Positions 14,716-64,000 of a DNA stretch of 64,000 nucleotides are shown in pieces (position 1 is the stretch's first letter; each line of letters opens with the position of its first letter). This stretch comes from Desulfomicrobium sp. ZS1 (GTDB lineage: Bacteria; Desulfobacterota; Desulfovibrionia; Desulfovibrionales; Desulfomicrobiaceae): NCBI RefSeq assembly GCF_024204645.1, contig NZ_CP100351.1, positions 2,542,001 through 2,606,000 of the forward strand, given 5' to 3'. The translations under genes were made by a program, and so were the position numbers. The notes beneath the pieces are model-generated. The model was not told where the DNA came from, searched no databases, and worked only from the letters and a program-made list of their open reading frames with translations.

Positions 14716-15552
14716 ATGACCGATATACAGACCAGAGCCCTGACTGCCACCGAGTGGATCAAAAACAACTGCCCGTCCGCACCCAAAACCGGCCTTGTGC
14801 TCGGCAGCGGCCTGGGGAAATGGATCAAGCCCGCGTGGATTCAAAAAAGCATCCCCTACGCGGACATCCCCGGCTTCCCGGTCTCCACCGTTGAAGGACA
14901 CGCAGGGACGCTGCTTGTGGCCGAGATCAAGGGCACGCCGGTCTTCATCTTTTCCGGCCGCTTTCACCTCTATGAAGGCTATCGTCCGCAGGAAGTGACT
15001 CTGCCCATTATCTGCCTGGCCCTGCTCGGGGCCTGCAACCTGATTCTGACCAATGCCGCCGGGGCACTCAATCCCCTCTTTGCCACCGGCGGGCTCATGC
15101 TGCTGACCGACCACATCAACATGACCGGGCACAACCCGCTGACCGGCCCCAATATCGACGCCTGGGGACCGCGCTTCCCCGATATGTCCCAGGTGTATTG
15201 CCCCACGTTGCGGGAGCAGGCCATGCAGGCCGGGCTGGCCTGCGGACAGCGCCTGGAGCAGGGCGTGTACGTGGCGGTAGCCGGCCCGAGCCTTGAAACT
15301 CCGGCCGAGACTCGCATGTATCGCATCATGGGCGCCGACGCCATCGGCATGTCCACGGTGCCCGAAGCCATCACCGCCCATCACATGGGCCTGAAGGTGC
15401 TGGGAATTTCCTGCCTGACCAACAAGAACCTGCCGGATTGCATGGCCGAAACATCGCATGCGGAAATCTTAAGTCAGGCCAATGCATCCGCCGACGCCCT
15501 GGGTTCGCTCCTGTCCGCCCTCATCCCCAACTTGGGAGGCCGCCATGGCTGA
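14716..15552 (+). CDS. Purine nucleoside phosphorylase
   Basis: 278 residues. It cleaves purine nucleosides with phosphate to base plus (deoxy)ribose-1-phosphate in purine salvage. Family signatures in order: GLVLGSGLGKWI (phosphate loop), VEGHAGTLLVAEI, FIFSGRFHLYEGY, LILTNAAGALNPLF, VAVAGPSLETPAETRMYRIMGADAIGMSTVPEA, and CLTNKN near the end. This is the trimeric PNP class. AAGGA lies upstream of the ATG. The gene overlaps the start of the following HEAT/receiver gene by eight bases, an unusual partner for a salvage enzyme. Confidence 0.95.
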   Translation: MTDIQTRALTATEWIKNNCPSAPKTGLVLGSGLGKWIKPAWIQKSIPYADIPGFPVSTVEGHAGTLLVAEIKGTPVFIFSGRFHLYEGYRPQEVTLPIICLALLGACNLILTNAAGALNPLFATGGLMLLTDHINMTGHNPLTGPNIDAWGPRFPDMSQVYCPTLREQAMQAGLACGQRLEQGVYVAVAGPSLETPAETRMYRIMGADAIGMSTVPEAITAHHMGLKVLGISCLTNKNLPDCMAETSHAEILSQANASADALGSLLSALIPNLGGRHG

Positions 15553-17161
15553 TCACGCCCATTTGCTCGCCGAGATCAAGGACAACATCCACCAACAAGA
15601 CCCCATCAAGGCACGCCTGGTACTGGGATACCTGGAAAACATGGATAAGAACATCCGTGAGCAGGTGCTGGGCGCTTTCCGGGAGGCTGCGCCCGAGTTT
15701 GCCGTGCCGGTCCTGTGCAGGTTCATCTCCGAACACCGGGACATGGTCGCGGGTCTGCCGCTGGTCCGGGAAATCCTGGCCGTCAAGATTCTCGCCCAGC
15801 CGGAACTGCTCGCCAAGGCCATAAGCGACCCGCAAACCCCTTGCCGCAGCATGTACATTTCCATGGCCGGAGATCTGCGTCTGGAAGAAGTGGTCGACAA
15901 TCTGATCGAAGCCCTGCTCGCGGCCTCTGACGTGAGCGAGATCAACCAGATCCTCGACACCCTGGGAGAAATCGGCGACCCGCAGGCCACCAACGCCGTC
16001 AGCGAGTTCCTCTATTCCGGCAACCGGAATCTTATCATCAGCGCCACCAAGGCTCTGGGCAAGCTGGCCACGCCCACCGCCATGCTGCGGCTGGCCGAAC
16101 GCATGGGCACGGACAACCAGCTCGATCTCTTGATCCTCGACATTTTCGCCAAGGTTCAAGACTCCATCTCCCTGGACAAACTCAATGAGGCCATGCGCTC
16201 CCACTACGCCCATCTGCGCACCTACGCCAAAAAGACCCTGGTCAGTATCGGCCCCAAGGCCGTGCCCATCCTGACCGAGAATCTGCTCTTCGACGACGCC
16301 GACCTGCGCATCCATACATTAAATGTACTGGGCGACATCGGCGACCCGGCCGCCATCTCGCCTATCCGAAAACTGCTGCACACCCACCCCGCCAACGCCA
16401 ACGTGCGTTTCGCCGCCTACGAAGCCCTGGGCCTCTTGCCGCTGGACCGGGGGGCGTACGTGCTGACTCAGGGTCTCGGTGACCCGGTGGACCATGTCTG
16501 CATCGCCGCGGCCAAGGCCATCGACCGCAATTTCAACGAGATCATGGCCGCCGGAATCAAGAACCTAGCCAGCGAAAGGGACGAGGATGCCCACCGCATC
16601 ATAAGGACCGCCATCAACGCCCAGGCCAAAGAGATATTCTTAAGCCTCATGGAAGAGGAACGCTTCCAGCCCATGGCGTTAAGCCACCTTGGCCGGGCCC
16701 ACCAGGACATCCGCGACTTCTTCTACGCCATTCTGAAAGAGCACGGCTACTCTGGGCTGGCCCTCAAACTCCTGGCCCCGGAAGAAAAAAAGACGGCGGC
16801 CCGCAAACGCATCTGCGCCGTGGACGACTCGCGCATGATTTTGAGCATCTACAAATCGACCCTGCACGAACTGGGCTTCGAGCCCGTGCTCTTCGAATTC
16901 CCGGCCAGCGCCCTGGAATGGCTGCAATCGAACACCCCGGAGATGGTGCTTACGGACCTGAACATGCCGGACATCACCGGCATCGACCTGACCCGGGCGA
17001 TCCGCAAATCCTTCTCCAAGAAGGAACTGCCTGTGGTCATGGTCACCACCCAGGACGAAGCCAACGACAACAAGGCCGCCCTGGAAGCCGGGGTCAACGA
17101 CATCCTGCGCAAGCCCTTCACGGCGGAAAGTTTGCAGGCGGTGTTCAAGAAGTTCTTGTAG
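15545..17161 (+). CDS. HEAT-repeat protein with C-terminal receiver domain
   Basis: 538 residues from ATG 15545. The first 410 residues are alpha-helical repeats of HEAT/PBS-lyase type, with recurring blocks such as LDTLGEIGDPQATNAVSEFL, LKALGKLATPTAML-like and LNVLGDIGDPAAISPIRKLL. A complete CheY-like receiver forms the last 120 residues (RICAVDDSRMILSIYKS, phospho-acceptor Asp in MVLTDLNMPDITG, Thr in VVMVTTQDEAND, Lys in ILRKPF). It is cytoplasmic, with no DNA-binding or enzymatic output domain. Phosphorylation probably alters a protein-binding scaffold. The start lies inside the phosphorylase gene, implying translational coupling. No partner kinase is adjacent. Confidence 0.9.
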   Translation: MADHAHLLAEIKDNIHQQDPIKARLVLGYLENMDKNIREQVLGAFREAAPEFAVPVLCRFISEHRDMVAGLPLVREILAVKILAQPELLAKAISDPQTPCRSMYISMAGDLRLEEVVDNLIEALLAASDVSEINQILDTLGEIGDPQATNAVSEFLYSGNRNLIISATKALGKLATPTAMLRLAERMGTDNQLDLLILDIFAKVQDSISLDKLNEAMRSHYAHLRTYAKKTLVSIGPKAVPILTENLLFDDADLRIHTLNVLGDIGDPAAISPIRKLLHTHPANANVRFAAYEALGLLPLDRGAYVLTQGLGDPVDHVCIAAAKAIDRNFNEIMAAGIKNLASERDEDAHRIIRTAINAQAKEIFLSLMEEERFQPMALSHLGRAHQDIRDFFYAILKEHGYSGLALKLLAPEEKKTAARKRICAVDDSRMILSIYKSTLHELGFEPVLFEFPASALEWLQSNTPEMVLTDLNMPDITGIDLTRAIRKSFSKKELPVVMVTTQDEANDNKAALEAGVNDILRKPFTAESLQAVFKKFL

Positions 17162-17553: not shown

Positions 17554-18888
17554 TCACCCCAACCCCAGGCGCTTCAACTTCTCCCTGAGCGTTTTGCGGT
17601 CGATGCCCAGGATCTCGGCAGCGCGGGTTTTGTTGTCGCCGGTGCGGGCCAGGACCGCGCGGATGTGGTCCGCTTCGACCTCGGCCAGGGTCTTGTCCCC
17701 GTGCCGGCCGCGGGTGATGGAAAATCGCATGGACTCAGGCAGGTCGGTGATGTCGATGACCGGCCCGTCACCGACGATGACCAGGCGCTGCAACAGATTC
17801 TCCAATTCCCGGACATTGCCGGGCCAGGCGTACTGGGCCAGGGCGTCCAGCGCCTCGTCGGTCATGCGCGGGGTCTCGCGGTTCATGTCCGCGGAGAATT
17901 TGCGCAGGAAATGATTGGCCAGCATGAGGATGTCGTCCCCGCGTTCGGCCAGGGACGGCAGGCGAATCTCCACGACATGAATGCGGTAAAAGAGGTCCTC
18001 CCGGAAAAGGCCCTGCGCCACCAGCCGTTTCAAATCCTTATGCGTGGCCGCGATAATGCGGGTATCGACGGTGCGGGTACGTGACGACCCGACCATGCAA
18101 AATTCCTTGCTCTGCATGACCCGGAGCAACTTGGCCTGCAGATTGGGGCTGGCGTCTCCGATTTCGTCCAGAAAGATGGTTCCACCGTTGGCGATCTCGA
18201 AAAAACCGGCCCGACTGTCTTTGGCGCCGGTGAAGGCTCCCTTAACGTGGCCGAAGAGTTCGCTCTCAAGCAGGGTGTCGGGAATGGCCGAGCAATTGAC
18301 CGGCACAAAGGCCGAAGCCCTGCGGTCGCTGTTATAGTGCACGGCGCGGGCCACCACTTCCTTGCCAGTGCCCGATTCCCCGGAAATGAATACATTGGCG
18401 CTGGTCTGTGCAGCCTTGCGGATAAGCCCGTAAACGGCCTGCATCTCCGGACAGTTGCCGATGATCCCGAAGACGCTGAGTTCCTGGCCGCCTGCATGGG
18501 CGGCGCGCCTCCTGACCTGTTTTTCAAGAATCCGCCGGACCACGGCCAAGAGCTCCTCGCCGGTGAAAGGCTTGGCCAGGTACTCTCCGGCCCCGTCGCG
18601 CATGGCCTCCACGGCCCCGCTGATCGTCGGATAGCCCGTAATCATCATGATCTCGGTATCTTTGAAATTGTCCCGCACATACTTGATGAGCTCCAGCCCG
18701 TTTGCCCGAGGCATCTTGTAATCGGTGATGATCAGGTCCACGGGCGTCTCGTCCAGAAAGGCTCCGGCCTCCTCGACGCTGCCGCAGGTATGGACCACAT
18801 ATCCCGCCCCGGTCAGGTTGCGCGAGATGACTTCAAGGGTGGCGGGGCTGTCGTCCACGGCCAGAATTGTCGTAGCCTTGTCCTGCAT
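17554..18888 (-). CDS. NtrC-family sigma-54-dependent response regulator
   Basis: 444 residues. Receiver domain 1-125 (AVDDSPATLEV, phospho-acceptor Asp56 in LIITDYKMPR), AAA+ domain about 140-370, and a Fis-type helix-turn-helix at the C-terminus (NKTRAAEILGIDRKTLREKLKRLG). Walker A is GESGTGKE, the sigma-54 contact loop GAFTGA is intact, and Walker B is GGTIFLDEIGD. It should bind enhancer DNA and activate sigma-54 RNA polymerase when phosphorylated. It sits 13 bases after the histidine kinase gene and ends a six-gene run headed by a sigma-54 promoter at 23511-23528, so autoregulation of the run is likely. AAGGA precedes the ATG. Confidence 0.95.
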   Translation of the reverse strand: MQDKATTILAVDDSPATLEVISRNLTGAGYVVHTCGSVEEAGAFLDETPVDLIITDYKMPRANGLELIKYVRDNFKDTEIMMITGYPTISGAVEAMRDGAGEYLAKPFTGEELLAVVRRILEKQVRRRAAHAGGQELSVFGIIGNCPEMQAVYGLIRKAAQTSANVFISGESGTGKEVVARAVHYNSDRRASAFVPVNCSAIPDTLLESELFGHVKGAFTGAKDSRAGFFEIANGGTIFLDEIGDASPNLQAKLLRVMQSKEFCMVGSSRTRTVDTRIIAATHKDLKRLVAQGLFREDLFYRIHVVEIRLPSLAERGDDILMLANHFLRKFSADMNRETPRMTDEALDALAQYAWPGNVRELENLLQRLVIVGDGPVIDITDLPESMRFSITRGRHGDKTLAEVEADHIRAVLARTGDNKTRAAEILGIDRKTLREKLKRLGLG

Positions 18889-20470: not shown

Positions 20471-20511
20471 AAAAATTTCGGCGCGGCCCCCCTAAGAGGC
20501 CACGCCGAAAA
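20471..20511 (-). terminator. Intra-operon terminator/attenuator before the kinase gene
   Basis: On the minus strand TTTCGGCGTGGCC pairs with GGCCGCGCCGAAA (one mismatch) around a 9-base loop and is followed by TTTTTG. It lies in the 135-base gap between the small membrane-protein gene and the kinase gene. It would let permease transcripts outnumber those of the kinase and activator. Confidence 0.7.
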
Positions 20512-20551: not shown

Positions 20552-21253
20552 TCAATGACCGCTGATTTTCAGGCCCCATCCTTCGAAGATAAAGAGGATG
20601 CCGAAGCCATACCAAATGGTGTAAACGACATAGAAAACCAGGGAGAAGATGACGATTCCGGCCTTGTCCCTGATCTGCTCGGGTACCACGTTGTAGTAGT
20701 TATAGGCAGTCTCCACGACCTTGGAATTGATGTTGTAGGCGACCTTGGCTGCGGCGAACGCCTTCTGATCCGTCAACCCCTTGTCTAAACCGGCCAGGAT
20801 CGTGTTCCAGTTGTAGAGTGCCTGACGGTCATCCTTGGATTCCAGGGCGGGATACTTGGCCTTCAAGGCGGCGCCATCGTTATGGTACATCTTGTCCGCG
20901 TCTTCAAGGCTGGCGCTGAGGATGGCAAAGTAGTCGCCACTCACGGTCAATTCCTTGCCCTGGGCGGATGCAGTGGCCCCTGCGGCGGTGATCAGCGCAA
21001 CGCTGTCGGCGGCCTGTGTCTCGCTTTTCATCTTCATGGTCACGTTGATCTGGGTGCCGGACACGGTCTTGGCTTCTTCCTTCAGATTATCCACATAGTA
21101 TGCAGAACCCTTGGAGATGGAATTGTACAGGTTGTCCAGATAGCCCATGGCGTTGTGCCCGTCGAAAATAGGCTGGAACATGGCGATAAGGACTATGAAG
21201 AAGGTTACGATCAGGACAAGTCCCCCGGTGAATTCCTTTTTGTTATGAATCAT
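20552..21253 (-). CDS. Two-helix membrane protein coupled to the TauE permease
   Basis: 233 residues. One transmembrane helix lies near the N-terminus (GGLVLIVTFFIVLIAMFQPI), and another near the C-terminus (AGIVIFSLVFYVVYTIWYGFGILFIFEGW). About 160 mostly polar residues lie between them, probably in the periplasm, and include VTMKMKSETQAADS and KYPALESKDDRQALYNW. I do not recognise a named family. The ATG is four bases after the permease stop with GAGGA upstream, so production is tightly coupled. The arrangement suggests an accessory subunit or periplasmic domain for the permease (inference). Confidence 0.8.
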   Translation of the reverse strand: MIHNKKEFTGGLVLIVTFFIVLIAMFQPIFDGHNAMGYLDNLYNSISKGSAYYVDNLKEEAKTVSGTQINVTMKMKSETQAADSVALITAAGATASAQGKELTVSGDYFAILSASLEDADKMYHNDGAALKAKYPALESKDDRQALYNWNTILAGLDKGLTDQKAFAAAKVAYNINSKVVETAYNYYNVVPEQIRDKAGIVIFSLVFYVVYTIWYGFGILFIFEGWGLKISGH

Positions 21254-21257
21254 AAGA

Positions 21258-22535
21258 TTAGTCCTCGTACTTCAGTGTCTTGATATTCTTGAAAAATGCT
21301 CCGAATACCCAGATGCCGAACAGGGAGATGACGATGAAGAACAGGTACATGCCCACCGTGTCCATGACCGAGGTGAAACCGGCCAGGGACTCGGGCAGAT
21401 AGCCCATGGCGACCATCTTCTTGGGCAGGGCGAAGAAGCGGTTGACGAAACCGGCCATGACCGAAAGGGCGAAGAAGCCGCGAATGGTGATGCCGGGCAC
21501 GACCTTGGTCACCAGGGCGCCGACCTGGATGCCGAGCAGGGAACCGAGCAGCATGCCCATGGCCAGGGTGTAGAAGATGAAGCCGTAGATGGCGTACTGG
21601 GTGATGGCGCCGTAACCAGCCGTGAACACGATCTGGAAGATGTCCGTGCCGACGGTGGTGAGCGAAGAGACGCCCAGGATGTAGACAAAAATGGGGAAGG
21701 TCAGGAAGCCGCCGCCAACGCCCATGATGCCCGCAGCCATGCCGACCAGCACGCCGGAGAGGACCAGAAAGATCCAGGAGATCTTGCGCCCGCCGGGAAT
21801 GAGGCCCTGGTCGAAAGAGACCATGGGCGGCAAATTGACGGACTGCAGTTTCTTGGCGATGCCCGTCATGCCGGCGCCTTCGCTGGTGTCATGCGCGCCG
21901 CCCGACTGAACGGCCTTCTTGGCGCTCCAGTAGTCGTACATGCCGTAAAAACCCAGGAAGCCGAGCATGACCGTGTACACGGTGGTGATGAAGGCGTCGC
22001 TCAAAACCGGATTGATATTGTAGAGCGCACGGTTGATGCCCGCGCCCACTGTCGTGCCGATGATGGCGCCGATGAGAAAGACGAAAGCCAGGGGCACGGA
22101 CACGTTGCCCATCTTGCGATGCAGGACGCTGCCCATGATGGCCTTGGCAAAAATGTGAAAGAGGTCCGTGCCGACGGCCAGGATGCCCTTGACGCCCGCG
22201 CTCATGAGTGCCGGGGCGATAATGAAGCCGCCGCCTGCGCCGATGCAGCCTGAAATGAGACCCGCACCCACGCCAATGAAAATCGACACAAAGAAAATAT
22301 ACAGGCTGTAAAAGGAAGGACTGTAGGCTTCTTTTCCGCCAATCACGCTCGGCAAAGCCTGGCCGATTTCATCGGCATAGGCCCATCCGCCAAGCACGGC
22401 AGGAATGAGCATGAGGCACAGCAGCCAGATCCGTTTCTTGTCGCCCATGATGATTCGGGCGTTTTCCACTTCCCACCGGGCAAAGGACCGCGAGCCCTCC
22501 ACCATGAATGCTCCCCAATCTTTAAAGAATCCCAT
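21258..22535 (-). CDS. TauE/SafE-family anion permease
   Basis: 425 residues from ATG 22535 (GAGGAGG 11 bases upstream). An upstream ATG at 22577 would add 14 residues but has a poor ribosome site. The protein has many transmembrane helices and the family's paired glycine-rich signatures, IFIGVGAGLISGCIGAGGGFIIAPALM and GVLVGMAAGIMGVGGGFLTFPIFVY (given here as names of the two repeats). TauE/SafE proteins export sulfite, sulfoacetate and related organosulfur anions, which fits a sulfate reducer. It is flanked by response regulators and a kinase on the same strand, so its expression is likely signal-controlled through sigma-54. Confidence 0.9.
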   Translation of the reverse strand: MGFFKDWGAFMVEGSRSFARWEVENARIIMGDKKRIWLLCLMLIPAVLGGWAYADEIGQALPSVIGGKEAYSPSFYSLYIFFVSIFIGVGAGLISGCIGAGGGFIIAPALMSAGVKGILAVGTDLFHIFAKAIMGSVLHRKMGNVSVPLAFVFLIGAIIGTTVGAGINRALYNINPVLSDAFITTVYTVMLGFLGFYGMYDYWSAKKAVQSGGAHDTSEGAGMTGIAKKLQSVNLPPMVSFDQGLIPGGRKISWIFLVLSGVLVGMAAGIMGVGGGFLTFPIFVYILGVSSLTTVGTDIFQIVFTAGYGAITQYAIYGFIFYTLAMGMLLGSLLGIQVGALVTKVVPGITIRGFFALSVMAGFVNRFFALPKKMVAMGYLPESLAGFTSVMDTVGMYLFFIVISLFGIWVFGAFFKNIKTLKYED

Positions 22536-22595
22536 ACGCGTTACCGCCTCCTCGTAATCTTGTGTATTCAGGACCATGTTCCCTGTGCAGGTGGC

Positions 22596-22991
22596 TTACT
22601 CCAACCCGCGCCTCTCACCCGCTTTCCTGCTCCGGGAACAGGCCTCCCGGATTTTGCCGACCAGGACATCAAGCTCCACCGGCTTCATCAGATAGTCGAA
22701 CGCGCCCATGGCCATGCCCGAAATGGCGACTTCCATGTCGGCGTGCCCGGTCAGCATGAGCACCTGCACCTGCGGAAAACGCAACTTTATCTCCCGCAAG
22801 ACCTGAATGCCGTCCATGCCGGGCATTCCTACATCAAGGACTACCACATCGGCGGGTTCCACCTCAAGCTCTTGCAACCCCTCCAGGCCGCTGCCGGCCT
22901 CCCGGACGAGAAAACCCCTTTTATGCAGGCGTTTGGCCATGGTGACCAGGAACTGCGTCTCGTCGTCGATAAGAAGAATGCTTTCAGCCAT
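22596..22991 (-). CDS. Single-domain response regulator (second of pair)
   Basis: 131 residues from ATG 22991 (GGAG upstream). A CheY-like receiver only: acidic pocket LLIDDETQF, phospho-acceptor Asp in VVVLDVGMPGMDG, Thr in VLMLTGHADME, Lys in YLMKPVELDVL. No output domain. It resembles the preceding receiver at 23014-23445 closely enough to be a tandem duplicate, differing mainly in the C-terminal tail. It may act as a phosphate sink or shuttle for the downstream kinase. The gene starts 22 bases after its paralogue. Confidence 0.92.
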   Translation of the reverse strand: MAESILLIDDETQFLVTMAKRLHKRGFLVREAGSGLEGLQELEVEPADVVVLDVGMPGMDGIQVLREIKLRFPQVQVLMLTGHADMEVAISGMAMGAFDYLMKPVELDVLVGKIREACSRSRKAGERRGLE

Positions 22992-23013
22992 GAGCGCTCC
23001 ATTTTGATCGCCG

Positions 23014-23445
23014 CTACGTTCGGCGACTGGCGATCTCCCGAACCCGTGCGTCGACGATCTTCTCTTCATGCCTGCGCTTTTTCTCCACCGCTTCCTTGAC
23101 CTTTTCGACCAGCACATCGATGCTGCATGGCTTCATCAGATAATCCGAAGCCCCCAGCCGCATGCCGTCGATGGCCGATTCCACGGTGGCGTGTCCGGTC
23201 AGCATGATCACTTCCACCAGAGGAAATTGCTGCTTGATGAGCTGCAGCATCTCGATGCCGCTGCGTCCGGGCAGCTTCACGTCAAGGATGACAACCTCGA
23301 TTTCGCCATGCAGCGCAAGCTTCTGCAAGGCCTCTTCGCCGCTGCCTGCGTGAAACACTTCCATGCTCCGCATGGTCAGGCGTTTCTTCATGATTTCGAT
23401 GAACTGCGCATCGTCATCGACAAGCAAGATATTGGCGTCGGTCAC
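23014..23445 (-). CDS. Single-domain response regulator (first gene of the operon)
   Basis: 143 residues starting with GTG, with AAGGAGGG seven bases upstream. Receiver motifs: ILLVDDDAQFIE, phospho-acceptor Asp in VVILDVKLPGRSG, Thr in VIMLTGHATVESA, Lys in YLMKPCSIDVLVEK. A charged helical tail follows (EAVEKKRRHEEKIVDARVREI). It is the first gene after the sigma-54 promoter at 23511-23528, about 57 bases from the predicted transcript start. No DNA-binding domain is present. Confidence 0.92.
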   Translation of the reverse strand: MTDANILLVDDDAQFIEIMKKRLTMRSMEVFHAGSGEEALQKLALHGEIEVVILDVKLPGRSGIEMLQLIKQQFPLVEVIMLTGHATVESAIDGMRLGASDYLMKPCSIDVLVEKVKEAVEKKRRHEEKIVDARVREIASRRT

Positions 23446-23510
23446 TCAGCCCTCCTTGACGGGCCTGCCCGCTTGATCCGCAGGTAAGCCTTCTTCTGGT
23501 TCAAACACAT

Positions 23511-23528
23511 AAAGCAACGCACATGCCA
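23511..23528 (-). promoter_or_regulatory. Sigma-54 (-24/-12) promoter
   Basis: Read on the minus strand: TGGCATG, four bases, TTGCTTT. The invariant GG and GC dinucleotides have correct spacing and the flanks match the TGGCAYR-N4-TTGCW consensus. It sits 66 bases before the first receiver gene. The downstream genes include an NtrC-type activator with GAFTGA. Confidence 0.85.
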
Positions 23529-23683
23529 ACGCGCGCCTGCTTTTGCGTGTGAACAAACAAGGCCGGACCTAGACAATTATTACAACTGGCTGATTTTATG
23601 GAAGGCTACAAAAAAGCACGACGAATGGGTTCGCCACTGAAGAGTGGGGGAAGAGACCATAACGTAATTTCAAGCCAACAACC

Positions 23684-23716
23684 GGGGCGTTTCGCCCCAC
23701 GGGGACATTTCGCCCC
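23684..23716. promoter_or_regulatory. Paired candidate enhancer palindromes
   Basis: GGGGCGTTTCGCCCC (23684-23698, perfect 6-bp arms) is followed after two bases by GGGGACATTTCGCCCC (23701-23716, imperfect left arm). Their centres lie about 190 and 205 bases upstream of the predicted sigma-54 transcript start, a usual place for NtrC-type activator sites. The likely binder is the activator encoded at 17554-18888. Confidence 0.7.
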
Positions 23717-23782
23717 AAAACGGAAATCCGGCAGCCAAATCATTTGAAATCATGGATGAAATATCGGCAGGGAGAAACGAGC

Positions 23783-23797
23783 GGGGCGTTTTGCCCC
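23783..23797. promoter_or_regulatory. Third candidate enhancer palindrome
   Basis: GGGGCGTTTTGCCCC, the same GGGGC-N5-GCCCC pattern as at 23684-23716, about 290 bases upstream of the predicted start. Apart from these sites, the promoter and the terminator at 23829-23862, the 463-base gap holds nothing I recognise. Confidence 0.6.
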
Positions 23798-26195: not shown

Positions 26196-26316
26196 AAAAA
26201 ATTTTACTTTTTAGCTTGAATCGCCCAAAAAAGGCTTGCTTTTTGGACTCGACTTACACTACCTACTTAGCAGGCGTCAGATGATTAGTTTTTTTCACAG
26301 CAAAAGGAGAAAGAAC

Positions 26317-27654
26317 ATGAAACGTTTTGCTCTCGTAGCCCTGGTCGCCGCCCTGCTGTTCAGCATGGTCACCAGCGCTTCCGCCACCGAACTGAAAGTT
26401 CGTGGCAACATCGACGTGTACGGTATGTGGTCCGCCAACCTGAAGGATTTCGATTCCGACAAGGCTGATGGCGACAACTACACCACCAACCAGCGCATGC
26501 GCACATACTTTGACTACGTAGCCAGTGAAAACCTCAAGGCCGTCCTTGGCCTGGAAATCGACAACGATTGGGGTGCTGACTCCGCTTCCGACTGGGGCAC
26601 CGACGGCAAGGGCAACATCGAAGTGAAGCACGCCTACCTGGACTTCAACTTCCCTGACACCCAGGTCAACGTCAAAGCCGGTCTGCAGTACGTAGCCCTG
26701 CCCAGCATCTTCGGAAACCCCGTCTTCGAAGATGACGCTGCCGCCATCGTTGTCAGCGCTCCTGTCAACGATATGTTCGCAGTTGCTGTCGGCTACACCC
26801 GTGGCATTGATGGTAGCACCTCTTTCTCCGCCGGTGAAGGCGAAGACAAAGACGACAAGGACATGGCTTTTATCGCCGCCCCTGTCACCCTTGATGGCTT
26901 CAGCATCGCGCCTTACTTTGGCTATGCTTGGATCGGTGAAAATGTAGATAACACGGCTGCGTACTGGACCATCAACTCCACCGCTGATAACGTGTTGGTG
27001 CCCGCCAGCGAAGGGGATTTAACTGACGATGCAACCGTTTGGGTACTGGGCGCCAATGCCGAACTGACCATGTTCGATCCTCTGACCTTCGCCGCTGACC
27101 TGATCTATGGCGAGTTGGAAAACGACGATTACGAAACCAAGGGTTGGTACGGCGCTCTGGCCGCTTCCTACAAGATGGACATCATGACCGCCACCCTGTT
27201 CACCACCTACTTCTCCGGTGCTGACGAAGATGGCGACGAAGACAACTACCTGCCGACTCTGTCCGAAGGTTGGGGCCTGACTCCTTACATCGGCGGCGTT
27301 CGCGCTTTCAGCACCTCTTGGGATACCTTCTCCGGTATTGATGCCGACATGAACCTGGCTTCCTGGGTTGTCGGTCTGAAGCTCGCCAAGATCCAGTTCA
27401 TCGACAAGCTGTCCCACGACCTGACCATCGCTTACGCCATGGGCACTAACGATGAAGATGCCACCAATGCTGACGGCGATCACTATGCCTTCGACGAAGA
27501 AGATTCCGCTTGGGAAGTGTACTTTGTCAACAAGTACATGATCTATGAAAACCTGGCCGCCATCAACGAACTGGGCTTTTTCGCCCCTGAGTTCGACGAC
27601 GCCGAAGAAGACAATTCCTACTTCGCCACCGTCGGCTTCCAGTACAAGTTCTAA
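26317..27654 (+). CDS. Desulfovibrio-type outer-membrane porin, copy 1
   Basis: 445 residues from ATG 26317 (AAAGGAGAAAG upstream). A clean signal peptide (MKRFALVALVAALLFSMVTSASA) precedes the mature start TELKVRGNIDVYGMWSANLKD. The chain is acidic, rich in beta strands, and ends in the insertion signal FQYKF. It belongs to the homotrimeric porin family abundant in Desulfovibrionales. The high proportion of preferred codons suggests strong expression. A paralogue follows at 28192-29553 with the same mature N-terminus and the same downstream terminator. Confidence 0.9.
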   Translation: MKRFALVALVAALLFSMVTSASATELKVRGNIDVYGMWSANLKDFDSDKADGDNYTTNQRMRTYFDYVASENLKAVLGLEIDNDWGADSASDWGTDGKGNIEVKHAYLDFNFPDTQVNVKAGLQYVALPSIFGNPVFEDDAAAIVVSAPVNDMFAVAVGYTRGIDGSTSFSAGEGEDKDDKDMAFIAAPVTLDGFSIAPYFGYAWIGENVDNTAAYWTINSTADNVLVPASEGDLTDDATVWVLGANAELTMFDPLTFAADLIYGELENDDYETKGWYGALAASYKMDIMTATLFTTYFSGADEDGDEDNYLPTLSEGWGLTPYIGGVRAFSTSWDTFSGIDADMNLASWVVGLKLAKIQFIDKLSHDLTIAYAMGTNDEDATNADGDHYAFDEEDSAWEVYFVNKYMIYENLAAINELGFFAPEFDDAEEDNSYFATVGFQYKF

Positions 27655-27714: not shown

Positions 27715-28191
27715 GCCATCAAGCCTGGCTCCGCCTGAGTTTCGCATCCCGATCTATCCAAAATAGACCTTTCCAGTCGCACGAATCACACGCAGCGCAG
27801 AGACGTGGATATTCATGTCTGCGAGGCTTCATCTAAGATGCCCCCCTGACCCAGCCAACTACATTAACGCAAGCGTAGAAAAGTATCCAACGCAGTAAGT
27901 ACAAAAATGCGCATTTGAAAAAAATTAGCTTACGTATCCATCGTTTCACTTTTTTTACAGCCGAAGATCCAGACATTCGCAAAACATAGTCAGCAACGAT
28001 ACACCTGTTTTAACTAACTAGCACACCTACTTATTTTTTTCATAACTCCCTCTAAAAATACGACCATGTTTTTATAAAAAACTAACACTACTCCTAATTT
28101 CAAACACAGGAGCAAGCTGTACAGAGATGGAATGCGTTTTTCTGTCGGCTGTCAGATGTTTTTAAAAACACAAAGGTTAAAGGAGGAAGTT
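27715..28191 (+). other. AT-rich leader between the two porin genes
   Basis: No gene is seen in these 477 bases. From about 27890 onward the DNA is far richer in A and T than the surroundings, with several T and A runs (28031-28090), as in the upstream region of a strongly or variably expressed gene. No single promoter stands out by inspection. A short in-frame extension from ATG 28132 into the porin gene lacks a ribosome site. Confidence 0.5.
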
Positions 28192-29553
28192 GTGAAAACA
28201 CGTTTTATCTTGCACTGCGCGGCATCGATTGTGCTGTGCGCCGTCCTGGCTGCCAGCGCGTCGGCTACGGAACTGAAAGTTCGTGGCAACCTGGATGTCT
28301 ACGGCATGTGGTCCACCAATCTTAAGGACCATAACTCCGAAGTCAGCGATGCCGACAACTACATGACCACCCAGCGCATGCGCACCTACTTCGACTATGT
28401 CGCCAACGAAAACCTCAAGGCCGTCCTGGGCCTGGAAATCGACAACGTCTGGGGCGACAATTTGGACAACGTCGGCGGCGACTGGGGCACAGATGGCAAG
28501 GGCAATATCGAAGTGAAGCACGCTTACATGGACTTCACCCTCCCGGAAAGCCAGGTCAACATCAAGGCCGGCCTCCAGTACGTGGCCCTACCCAGCGTCT
28601 TCGGCAACCCTGTTTTTGAAAATGATGCTGCCGCTCTGGTGGTCAGCGCACCCCTCACCGACATGCTTGGCTTGGCCGTCGGCTACTCACGTGGCGTAGA
28701 TGGTAGTTATAACACCGCAAGCGCTGAGAGCAATTCTCCGCTTTACGGCGAGAATAAAGATGACGTCGATATGGCCTTCCTGCTCGCCCCCATCAAACTT
28801 GATGGGTTTGCCGTTAGTCCGTACGTCGCATATGCGTGGTTAGGTCAAAACACGCTGCATGCCGATCTGGATGGCGATGGCGTTTTCGACGTCATGGCTA
28901 CCGATGACGCCACCGCGTTGGTCTTTGGCGCCAATGCTGAACTGACCATGTTCGACCCACTGACCTTTGCCGCCGACTTCATCTACGGCCAGTCAAACTG
29001 GCAATACGAAGATTCTGACATTGACTCCGACGGCTGGTATGCCGCCCTAGCAGCATCTTATAAATTTGACGTGCTGACCGCCACCCTGTTTACCACCTAT
29101 GCTACTGGCTTTTCCGATGTATCTGACGACGACATTGGTGTTCTTCCAACTCTCGCAGAAGGCTGGGGCCTGAGCCCGTACATCGGCGGCGTGCGAGCTT
29201 TCAGCACGACATATGACTCTTTTGCCACAGACACCTTGGGTGTCGGCTCCGATGGCACGGGTCTTTGGACCATGGGCCTCGTGCTGGACAACATCTCCTT
29301 CGTGGACAAGCTGTCTCACACGCTGGTCCTTGCCTATGCCCAGGGCACTAGTGACGAAGACTCCATAGCCCTTTTCACCGAAGAGGATTCCGGTGTTGAG
29401 GCGTACCTGGTCAACAAATACATGATCTACGAAAACCTGGCCGCCATCAACGAACTGGGCTACTTCTCCGGCTCCAGCGAAGATCTGGAAGATCTCGACT
29501 ACGACCTCGACGCTTCCTACTTCGCAACCCTCGGCTTTTCGTACAAGTTCTAG
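28192..29553 (+). CDS. Desulfovibrio-type outer-membrane porin, copy 2
   Basis: 453 residues. The start is the GTG at 28192: AAAGGAGG lies five bases upstream and it opens a normal signal peptide (MKTRFILHCAASIVLCAVLAASASA). The mature protein begins TELKVRGNLDVYGMWSTNLKD and ends FSYKF. It shares long blocks with copy 1, such as MRTYFDYVA, GNIEVKHAY and ELTMFDPLTFAAD, and diverges mainly in the segments corresponding to extracellular loops. It is thus a tandem duplicate, with loop variation suggesting altered specificity or surface exposure. Confidence 0.9.
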   Translation: MKTRFILHCAASIVLCAVLAASASATELKVRGNLDVYGMWSTNLKDHNSEVSDADNYMTTQRMRTYFDYVANENLKAVLGLEIDNVWGDNLDNVGGDWGTDGKGNIEVKHAYMDFTLPESQVNIKAGLQYVALPSVFGNPVFENDAAALVVSAPLTDMLGLAVGYSRGVDGSYNTASAESNSPLYGENKDDVDMAFLLAPIKLDGFAVSPYVAYAWLGQNTLHADLDGDGVFDVMATDDATALVFGANAELTMFDPLTFAADFIYGQSNWQYEDSDIDSDGWYAALAASYKFDVLTATLFTTYATGFSDVSDDDIGVLPTLAEGWGLSPYIGGVRAFSTTYDSFATDTLGVGSDGTGLWTMGLVLDNISFVDKLSHTLVLAYAQGTSDEDSIALFTEEDSGVEAYLVNKYMIYENLAAINELGYFSGSSEDLEDLDYDLDASYFATLGFSYKF

Positions 29554-37249: not shown

Positions 37250-38101
37250 GTGACAAAATTCTCATTCCTGGGAGCCCTCATCCTGAGCCTTTGTCTCGTC
37301 GTTATGGCCATGCCTGATTTCGCCGATGCAAGACGCTTGGGCGGCGGAAGCTCGTTCGGGAGCAGACCGTCCTATTCCAAAAGTTATCAGAAGCCCTCGG
37401 CACCAGCGTCCTCGCCCACAAATCAGGCCGCACCCGGCGCATCCCCCATGGGCGGACGCGGCATGTTTGGCGGCTTGCTCGGCGGAATGCTCATGGGCGG
37501 ACTGCTGGGATCACTCTTTTTTGGCGGTGGATTTTCCGGAATTTCGTTTATCGACATTCTCTTGATCGGTGGCGGTCTTTTTCTGCTCATGCGTTTTCTG
37601 CGCAGTCGCCAGCCGGCTCCGCAGACCGCCGGAGGGCCTACCCGAGTTCACGACATGAACCGCGATGCCTGGAGCAACCTGCGTGCCTCGCAGCAGCACA
37701 CCGCATCCACGGCCCCCGACTACCCGGCAGGATTTGACGCCGACGACTTCCTGCAAGGCGCCAAGGCTGCGTATACCCGTCTTCAGGCCGCCTGGGACGC
37801 GCGCGACATGGACGACCTGGGCCAGTTCACCTCTGCGGACGTCTTCGCCGAGATTCAGTCTCAGGCAGCGGCGGACCCGAATCCCGGAAAAACGGAAATC
37901 CTGCTTCTGGAGGCCACGCTCCTTGAAGTCAAGACCCTGGGTAACCAGACCATAGCCACGGTTCTCTTCGACACCATGCTGCGCGAGGACTCGACCTCGG
38001 CTCCGGCCGAACAGGTCCGCGAAGCGTGGCATTTCAGCCGTTACGAAGCCGGCGGCGCAAAGCACTGGGTCGTGGAAGGCATTCAGCAACTGGAAAAATG
38101 A
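37250..38101 (+). CDS. Tim44-like domain membrane protein
   Basis: 283 residues from GTG 37250, preceded by GGAGGAC. A hydrophobic signal or anchor at the N-terminus (FSFLGALILSLCLVVMAM) is followed by a Ser/Pro/Gly-rich segment. Next comes a glycine-rich membrane part (MGGRGMFGGLLGGMLMGGLLGS, then IDILLIGGGLFLLMRFL). The C-terminal 130 residues form a Tim44-like domain (FLQGAKAAYTRLQAAWDARDMDDLGQFTS, ending VREAWHFSRYEAGGAKHWVVEGIQQLE, named as regions). Bacterial members are inner-membrane proteins of unclear function. Its stop overlaps the zinc-ribbon ORF downstream. Confidence 0.88.
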   Translation: MTKFSFLGALILSLCLVVMAMPDFADARRLGGGSSFGSRPSYSKSYQKPSAPASSPTNQAAPGASPMGGRGMFGGLLGGMLMGGLLGSLFFGGGFSGISFIDILLIGGGLFLLMRFLRSRQPAPQTAGGPTRVHDMNRDAWSNLRASQQHTASTAPDYPAGFDADDFLQGAKAAYTRLQAAWDARDMDDLGQFTSADVFAEIQSQAAADPNPGKTEILLLEATLLEVKTLGNQTIATVLFDTMLREDSTSAPAEQVREAWHFSRYEAGGAKHWVVEGIQQLEK

Positions 38102-62846: not shown

Positions 62847-64000
62847 TTATCTCTGATGGTGTTTACGGTAATCCGCGATGTCGCGATCCCAGCCGCCTTC
62901 AACGTCCTCTTCCTTCCAGAAGATGTACGGGTTATGACGGGGTTCCATTACATGCTGGGGAACTGGGGTAAGGCCGACGGCGGAAATGGCCTTGGCCAAG
63001 CCCTGGCGCTTGATGAGCTCGCCAAGACGCTCGCGGTTCTTGCCCTCTTCCATCCACCATTCCCAGATACCTTCGATGAGCTCTTTGATCGCGTCGTAGG
63101 GTTCCTCGACCTTGATGAAAGGCACCAACAGGGAGCCCATCTGGGCGCCGTCGAGAATCGGAGCCTTTGCGCCGACGAGGATCGACAGACCGCGGTCATT
63201 ACCGATGCGCAGAGCGCGAGGCATGACGTTCAAGCAGTGCATGCAACGGGTACATTCACGGTTGTTGATCATCAGCTTGCCATCTTCCATCCACATGCAT
63301 TCGGTGGGGCACAGATTGATGACTTCCTTTTCGATGTCGAAAGCGCCCCAATCCTTGCCGGAATGAGCGCCGCCATTAGGCTGTATTTCACCACCGATGT
63401 AGGCGGCAACAGCTTCCTGATCGATACGGATGTCGTCACGCCACGTGCCGATGAAGGACATGTCGGAACGAGCGATGGACGCCACGCAACCATTCGGACA
63501 GCCGTCAAACTTGAATTTGAACTTGTAGGGGAAAGCCGGACGATGCAGCTCATCCTGGTATTCCAGAGTCATCTGGTAGCACAATTCCTGCGTGTCGTAG
63601 CAAGCCCATTCACAACGGGACTCGCCCAAGCAACAAGCGGGAGTACGCAGGTTGGAACCGGAACCGCCAAGGTCGGTGTTCATGTTGTGGGTCAGTTCAT
63701 GGAAGATTTCTTCCAACTGAGGAGTGGTGGTACCCAGCAAAACGATGTCACCGGTAGCACCATGGAAGTTGGTCAGACCAGAACCGCGCATTTCCCAAAG
63801 ATCACACAACTTGCCCAGGAATTCGGTCGTGTAGTACTTTCCGTTGGGCTGGTTGACGCGCATGGTGTGGAAATGGGCAACACCAGGAAACTTCTCAGGC
63901 TGGTCACAGTAACGGCCGATAACGCCGCCGCCGTAGCCGAAAACACCAACGATGCCGCCGTGCTTCCAGTGAGTGGTGCCGTCCTTGTAGGACAGTTCCA
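62847..64000 (-). CDS. dsrA: Dissimilatory sulfite reductase alpha subunit (5' end beyond the window)
   Basis: The last 383 or so codons are present; the reading frame runs on past the window edge, so the N-terminus and promoter are missing. It begins in [21 protein letters not shown] and includes [20 protein letters not shown] with the sirohaem-cluster cysteines, [17 protein letters not shown], and the ferredoxin insert [20 protein letters not shown]. These are diagnostic of DsrA. The Met codon at 63863 is internal and not the start. It is cotranscribed with dsrB. Confidence 0.99.

Follow-up and report, generated by a model that had tools for sequence, protein, structure and literature searches.

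The window analysed here is a 64-kb stretch of the closed 3.87-Mb genome of Desulfomicrobium sp. ZS1. It carries on one strand a locus encoding two stand-alone receivers (RR1 and RR2), a TauE/SafE permease, a 233-aa membrane protein (hereafter the partner), a PAS histidine kinase and an NtrC-type activator, and this activator very probably switches the adjoining carrier on through three conserved dyads upstream of a sigma-54 promoter. As a whole, the locus is probably a two-component, sigma-54-controlled anion-carrier system, for which the following mechanism is proposed from sequence features, conservation and co-occurrence. The cytosolic PAS kinase would phosphorylate the activator, which would bind a tandem pair of dyads (at about -170 relative to the -24 element) as well as a distal dyad; integration host factor (IHF) would bend the DNA between the dyads and the promoter, and sigma-54 polymerase would transcribe the genes of both receivers, the carrier and the partner. 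A terminator after the partner gene would keep the expression of the kinase and activator under that of the carrier, with read-through providing a limited autoregulation. The carrier and its partner would form a unit linked to dissimilatory sulfite reductase (dsr) and moving a sulfur oxyanion, and the two receivers, originating from an older kinase-receiver-carrier block, would probably adjust the carrier or the signalling at the post-translational level.

The gene order proposed in a previous sequence-only reading of this DNA agrees with domain searches. That reading assigned the unit to positions 20552-23797, which do enclose the motifs and the carrier genes; the kinase and activator genes (20419-17554) lie outside this span. 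It mentions neither the terminator nor the IHF-like site described below.

Promoter, dyads and the encoded activator

The -24/-12 site and the three dyads were found where they had been placed before, and the presence of a sigma-54 promoter with enhancer-like dyads upstream is supported. Pattern searches, from which all genome-wide counts derive, revealed a single exact match to TGGCATG-N4-TTGCTTT in the genome, at 23528-23511 on the minus strand. This site has its GG and GC elements at the required distance and is close to TGGCAC-N5-TTGC, as expected of a sigma-54 promoter, and rpoN is encoded in the genome (439.6 bits against a cut-off of 277.35). Four sites in the window match the consensus at 10 or more of 12 positions and have a GG/GC core: this one and those at 37688 (minus), 36621 (plus) and 1519 (minus). 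The dyads have the form GGGGC(R)AAA(Y)GYCCC; a genome-wide search with the strict pattern GGGGCRAAAYGYCCC gave four exact matches, and three of these fall inside 115 bp at this promoter. With one mismatch allowed, nine matches were obtained both for this pattern and for a reversed-pattern control. The single motif is thus not rare, and what exceeds chance is the clustering of the dyads here together with the conservation of the cluster. Since the fourth exact match (L240), located between two unrelated genes, has no adjoining sigma-54 promoter by eye, the dyad regulon looks local in this genome. A genome-wide regulon was considered and rejected: the loose pattern GGGGCNNAANGCCCC with two mismatches showed no excess over the control, and the strict one yielded this promoter and the L240 site.

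Orthologous loci were gathered with the partner protein as the query. Most Desulfomicrobium loci hold the order RR1-RR2-TauE-partner-kinase-activator, and in most of the upstream regions compared within the genus all three dyads occur at near-fixed offsets, with the same -24/-12 site, before RR1: the promoter is preceded at about 170 bp by the tandem pair, whose members are 18 bp apart, and the distal dyad lies about 100 bp beyond. When nine diverged species are aligned, identity is 79, 82 and 92% in the dyads, 80% in the promoter, 95% in the ribosome site and 40% in the rest. In the window, an IHF-like site lies exactly 67 bp before the -24 element; 10 of 11 other loci of the genus have one at the same offset, and some further loci have one near that place; 16 of 25 loci have such a site in the interval, compared to 3.2 expected from shuffles. 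IHF is reported to be needed at the orp sigma-54 promoters of D. vulgaris (PMC3897727), and we infer its binding at the AATCAGCCAGTTG-type site.

The sequence-only reading was to be abandoned if the motifs were not conserved beside orthologous operons; they proved to be conserved, also across genera. A position weight matrix trained on sites of the genus only was used to scan 94 loci outside the training set for a dyad of at least 11 bits located 140-185 bp upstream of a -24/-12 site, the activator being counted as present at 50% identity or more. Such a dyad and promoter were found in 11 of 12 loci of the genus and in 10 of the 15 loci from other genera that carry the activator (54-69% identity), versus none of the 79 loci that lack it (1.03 Mb scanned), and ten shuffles of the activator-bearing loci gave no such combination. 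The spacing between dyad and promoter was 149-179 bp, mostly 167-175. The -24/-12 site occurs at the same place in Pseudodesulfovibrio-type loci as well (the names Pseudodesulfovibrio and Maridesulfovibrio were read for L078 and L079 and assigned by similarity to other loci). On a Desulfobacterales contig (L108, activator 57% identical), each of two promoters has a dyad exactly 170 bp upstream. The arms have drifted in some Pseudodesulfovibrio loci (GGTAC or GATAC for GGGGC) with their position kept, and one of them, L086, has dyads at -164 and -261 despite the drift. In two smaller Desulfomicrobium genomes, G006 and G011, the activator (78%) is encoded away from any carrier operon, beside an MFS-like gene (L249 and L250); no match to the partner gene was found in G006. 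The distance exceeds 1 Mb in G011, yet the carrier promoter of this genome (L044) retains its dyad, which fits action in trans.

This co-occurrence ties the dyads to the encoded activator, a protein with a receiver, an AAA+ domain with the GAFTGA motif and a Fis-type helix-turn-helix (HTH), as expected of its family. The activator is likely the ligand of the dyads, as had been supposed, and the tie is as strong as sequence allows. Several points weigh against our interpretation of the locus. Five of the 15 activator-bearing loci from other genera fall below the threshold; the thresholds were chosen after some sites had already been seen and the genomes are related, so no p-value is attached to the 10/15 versus 0/79 comparison. 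The pairing of the kinase with the activator rests on gene adjacency, and a strong terminator conserved in the genus argues against a single uninterrupted operon.

Instead of binding a protein, the dyads could form hairpins in RNA or terminate transcription of the TPR gene upstream, given that GGGGCGAAAYGCCCC, downstream of the TPR stop codon, can fold into a GC-rich hairpin and that a hairpin scan listed the distal dyad as weakly terminator-like. However, no T-runs follow the dyads, the tandem pair is phased at 18 bp, the spacing to the sigma-54 promoter is fixed although the upstream gene varies in other genera, and the dyads track the activator, all of which makes this explanation extremely unlikely.

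Terminator, kinase and stand-alone receivers

T-tailed hairpins of -17 to -32 kcal/mol were found in the gap between the partner and kinase genes in every Desulfomicrobium locus tested, while such a hairpin is missing from this gap in several Pseudodesulfovibrio and Maridesulfovibrio loci. In a single autoregulated operon no strong terminator is expected between the promoter and the regulator genes, and here one is present. The earlier notion of a self-controlled unit is weakened by this, since the conserved terminator splits the carrier genes from the kinase and activator genes. Because of this separation, one self-controlled operon would require read-through or a second promoter. In the simplest reading, the carrier block would be made in excess and the regulators would be expressed via read-through; a hidden second promoter for the kinase-activator pair is possible. 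It is also conceivable, although we consider it the lesser probability, that the kinase and activator constitute a separate transcription unit past the terminator, in a system without autoregulation. The terminator with its 16-bp stem and TTTTT, for which each Desulfomicrobium locus tested has a comparable hairpin, and the unlinked activator of G011 favour such an arrangement, whereas only about 55 bp separate the terminator from the kinase start, no sigma-70-like site was found on that strand in the region scanned, and the hairpin has no comparable counterpart in the Pseudodesulfovibrio and Maridesulfovibrio loci mentioned above. On the far side of the activator, and convergent with its gene, lies a gene encoding a HEAT-repeat protein with a C-terminal receiver (15482-17161), which adjoins the activator in most of the genus.

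TauE-partner pairs were examined in the window (20552-21253) and in 80 further loci (L070-L149). The partner gene follows TauE in all 74 loci with enough flanking sequence. A stand-alone receiver precedes TauE in 54 of them, and at least two receivers are present in 43; a kinase is encoded upstream in 55. Since an activator at least 50% identical to that of the window is present in just 18 of these loci, the kinase-receiver-TauE-partner block is more widespread than the activator. In many Desulfobacterota (L078-L149, L220-L227), genes for a histidine kinase and for two or three stand-alone receivers come before the carrier gene; this upstream kinase is missing at that spot in Desulfomicrobium, and the Pseudodesulfovibrio and Maridesulfovibrio loci have both kinases. 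Judging by this distribution, the receivers stem from an older kinase-receiver-TauE block spread over Desulfobacterota. RR1 shows unusual conservation: its acidic, threonine and lysine residues are intact, the LTGHATVESAIEGMKLGAFDYLMKP surface hardly varies, and the C-terminal tail is conserved as well. Lacking a DNA-binding domain, RR1 and RR2 may have a protein target, which could be the carrier. A bolder but improbable proposal is that TauE and the partner form a dsr-dedicated sulfur-oxyanion transporter gated by phosphorylated stand-alone receivers, the phosphorelay being directed onto the carrier and not onto DNA, with sigma-54 control as a second layer setting the amount of carrier in Desulfomicrobium, Pseudodesulfovibrio and Maridesulfovibrio.

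Carrier, partner protein and candidate substrate

The carrier matches PF01925 with 122.7 bits (cut-off 32.6), has the many transmembrane segments typical of the TSUP family and is highly conserved, with a mean column identity of 69%; comparison with homologues suggests that translation may in fact begin about 13 codons into the predicted reading frame. The partner has no family in Pfam or NCBIfam. It contains two hydrophobic helices, and its structure was modelled confidently (predicted local distance difference test, pLDDT, 92.6; predicted template modelling score, pTM, 0.80), although a fold search of the model against the PDB gave no match at E <= 0.001, and a search of solved structures for both TauE and the partner returned nothing useful.

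The distribution of the partner was compared with that of dsrA in 247 genomes of Desulfobacterota from 25 families. The partner is encoded in 57 genomes, all of which carry dsrA, and in none of the 122 genomes without dsrA (Fisher p 3.5e-21, uncorrected for relatedness); 57 of the 125 dsrA-positive genomes have it. In the window, dsrA itself is found about 40 kb from the carrier operon (62874-64000, minus strand), running off the end. The confinement of the partner to dsrA-bearing genomes points to a sulfur oxyanion as the substrate, most likely sulfite or sulfate. Export of sulfite or a sulfonate by the TauE carrier, as proposed in the sequence-only reading, is a prediction, the direction of transport not being readable from sequence.

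Import of sulfate instead of export of sulfite would also agree with the strict dsrA link. One TSUP clade of sulfate reducers, clade B, has been treated as candidate sulfate importers, and some of the genomes it includes have no other candidate for sulfate transport than a TSUP protein (PMC5840216). However, characterised TauE proteins of other bacteria have been assigned to sulfite export, and the carrier cannot be a general sulfate importer, because fewer than half of the dsrA-positive genomes have the unit; we regard import as somewhat unlikely. A substrate without sulfur, with the operon responding to stress by some other anion, for instance nitrate or molybdate, is less likely still. It would be in line with the role of a different TauE gene, DVU0251, in the nitrate sensitivity of D. 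vulgaris (PMC4001038) and with the effect of a sigma-54-linked PSE operon on molybdate fitness (PMC10102598), but DVU0251 (963 bp) and DVU0250 (588 bp) encode another protein pair, and the dsrA link of the partner speaks for sulfur. Identity of the carrier with the nitrate-cluster TauE DVU0251 (320 aa) was rejected, since both size and context differ.

Comparison with known systems and locus layout

The genus designated g34 is presumably Nitratidesulfovibrio. The best match to the activator in five g34 genomes was 45% identical, so no clear activator orthologue was found in these five; the published por promoter sequence of D. vulgaris Hildenborough had no match in 288 genomes of the family. 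For want of an activator orthologue, and because the D. vulgaris regulon has a PSE transporter, the operon could not be equated with DVU0943-0946, nor could it be assigned to the DVU0946/DVU0539 regulon, defined by an orthologous activator and a PSE transporter. There is nevertheless a likeness: DVU0539 and DVU0946, two paralogues, each bind palindromes at the operon to which they belong (PMC3333781), and the D. vulgaris systems resemble the present locus in having NtrC-type regulators, palindromes before the regulator's own sigma-54 operon and a putative anion exporter (PMC3333781, PMC4641369). Activation by the D. vulgaris regulators was demonstrated in an E. coli reporter. A difference is that the transporter DVU0543 belongs to the PSE family (Transporter Classification 2.A.98, PMC10102598) and not to TauE.

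Nine sigma-54 operons of D. vulgaris code for TSUP or PSE transporters, for which substrate data are lacking (PMC4641369). DVU0110/DVUA0057 exert sigma-54 control over a TSUP permease (DVU0132-DVU0133) through a motif conserved in D. baculatum (PMC4641369), but these activators are tied to exopolysaccharide genes and act from elsewhere; a plasmid search for DVUA0057 of pDV1 gave, among the matches listed, only generic activators of no more than 44% identity. The operon DVU2957-DVU2964, which includes a TSUP carrier and has conserved sites upstream, is likewise under sigma-54 control, through DVU2956 (PMC4641369); this range contains the clade B gene DVU2958 (PMC5840216). DVU2956 is a one-component activator with three half-sites. 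TauE of Cupriavidus necator, cited as a sulfite exporter in PMC5840216, shares the Pfam TauE family with the present carrier; it is distant and in another gene context, and export by the present carrier is only predicted.

Sigma-54 control of such carriers is thus already known in D. vulgaris, and what appears to be new is this activator-site pair, which is undescribed in the papers searched, supplementary tables aside, where a D. baculatum prediction may exist. The locus links a specific activator-site pair of conserved geometry to a carrier whose partner is confined, in our sample, to genomes with dissimilatory sulfite reductase. The partner protein could serve as a marker of, and a handle on, sulfur-oxyanion movement and its regulation in sulfate reducers, which are so far largely unassigned.

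Table 1. Features of the carrier locus in the window, listed from the distal dyad to the activator gene.
Feature	Position	Strand	Remarks
Distal enhancer-like dyad GGGGCAAAACGCCCC	23783..23797	-	Same position across the genus; 79% identity
Middle dyad GGGGCGAAATGTCCC (imperfect)	23702..23716	-	18 bp from proximal dyad; 82% identity
Proximal dyad GGGGCGAAACGCCCC	23684..23698	-	Start 170 bp upstream of the -24 element; 92% identity
IHF-like site AATCAGCCAGTTG	23583..23595	-	Differs from WATCAANNNNTTR at one position; 67 bp before the -24 element
-24/-12 sigma-54 promoter TGGCATGTGCGTTGCTTT	23511..23528	-	Consensus match, genus conservation
RR1, stand-alone receiver, 143 aa	23014..23445	-	PF00072; DD10-11, D55, T83 and K105 intact
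RR2, stand-alone receiver, 131 aa	22596..22991	-	PF00072
TauE/SafE (TSUP) permease, 439 aa	21258..22577	-	PF01925; 8-10 hydrophobic segments
Partner protein, 233 aa	20552..21253	-	Two transmembrane helices flanking a predicted extracytoplasmic domain
Intrinsic terminator	20476..20510	-	16-bp stem, then TTTTT; between partner and kinase genes
PAS histidine kinase, 505 aa	18902..20419	-	PAS-HisKA-HATPase; no transmembrane segment predicted
NtrC-type sigma-54 activator	17554..18888	-	Receiver, AAA+ with GAFTGA, Fis-type HTH

Elsewhere in the window, the plus strand carries a tandem pair of genes for similar porin-like outer-membrane proteins (26236-27654 and 28132-29553).

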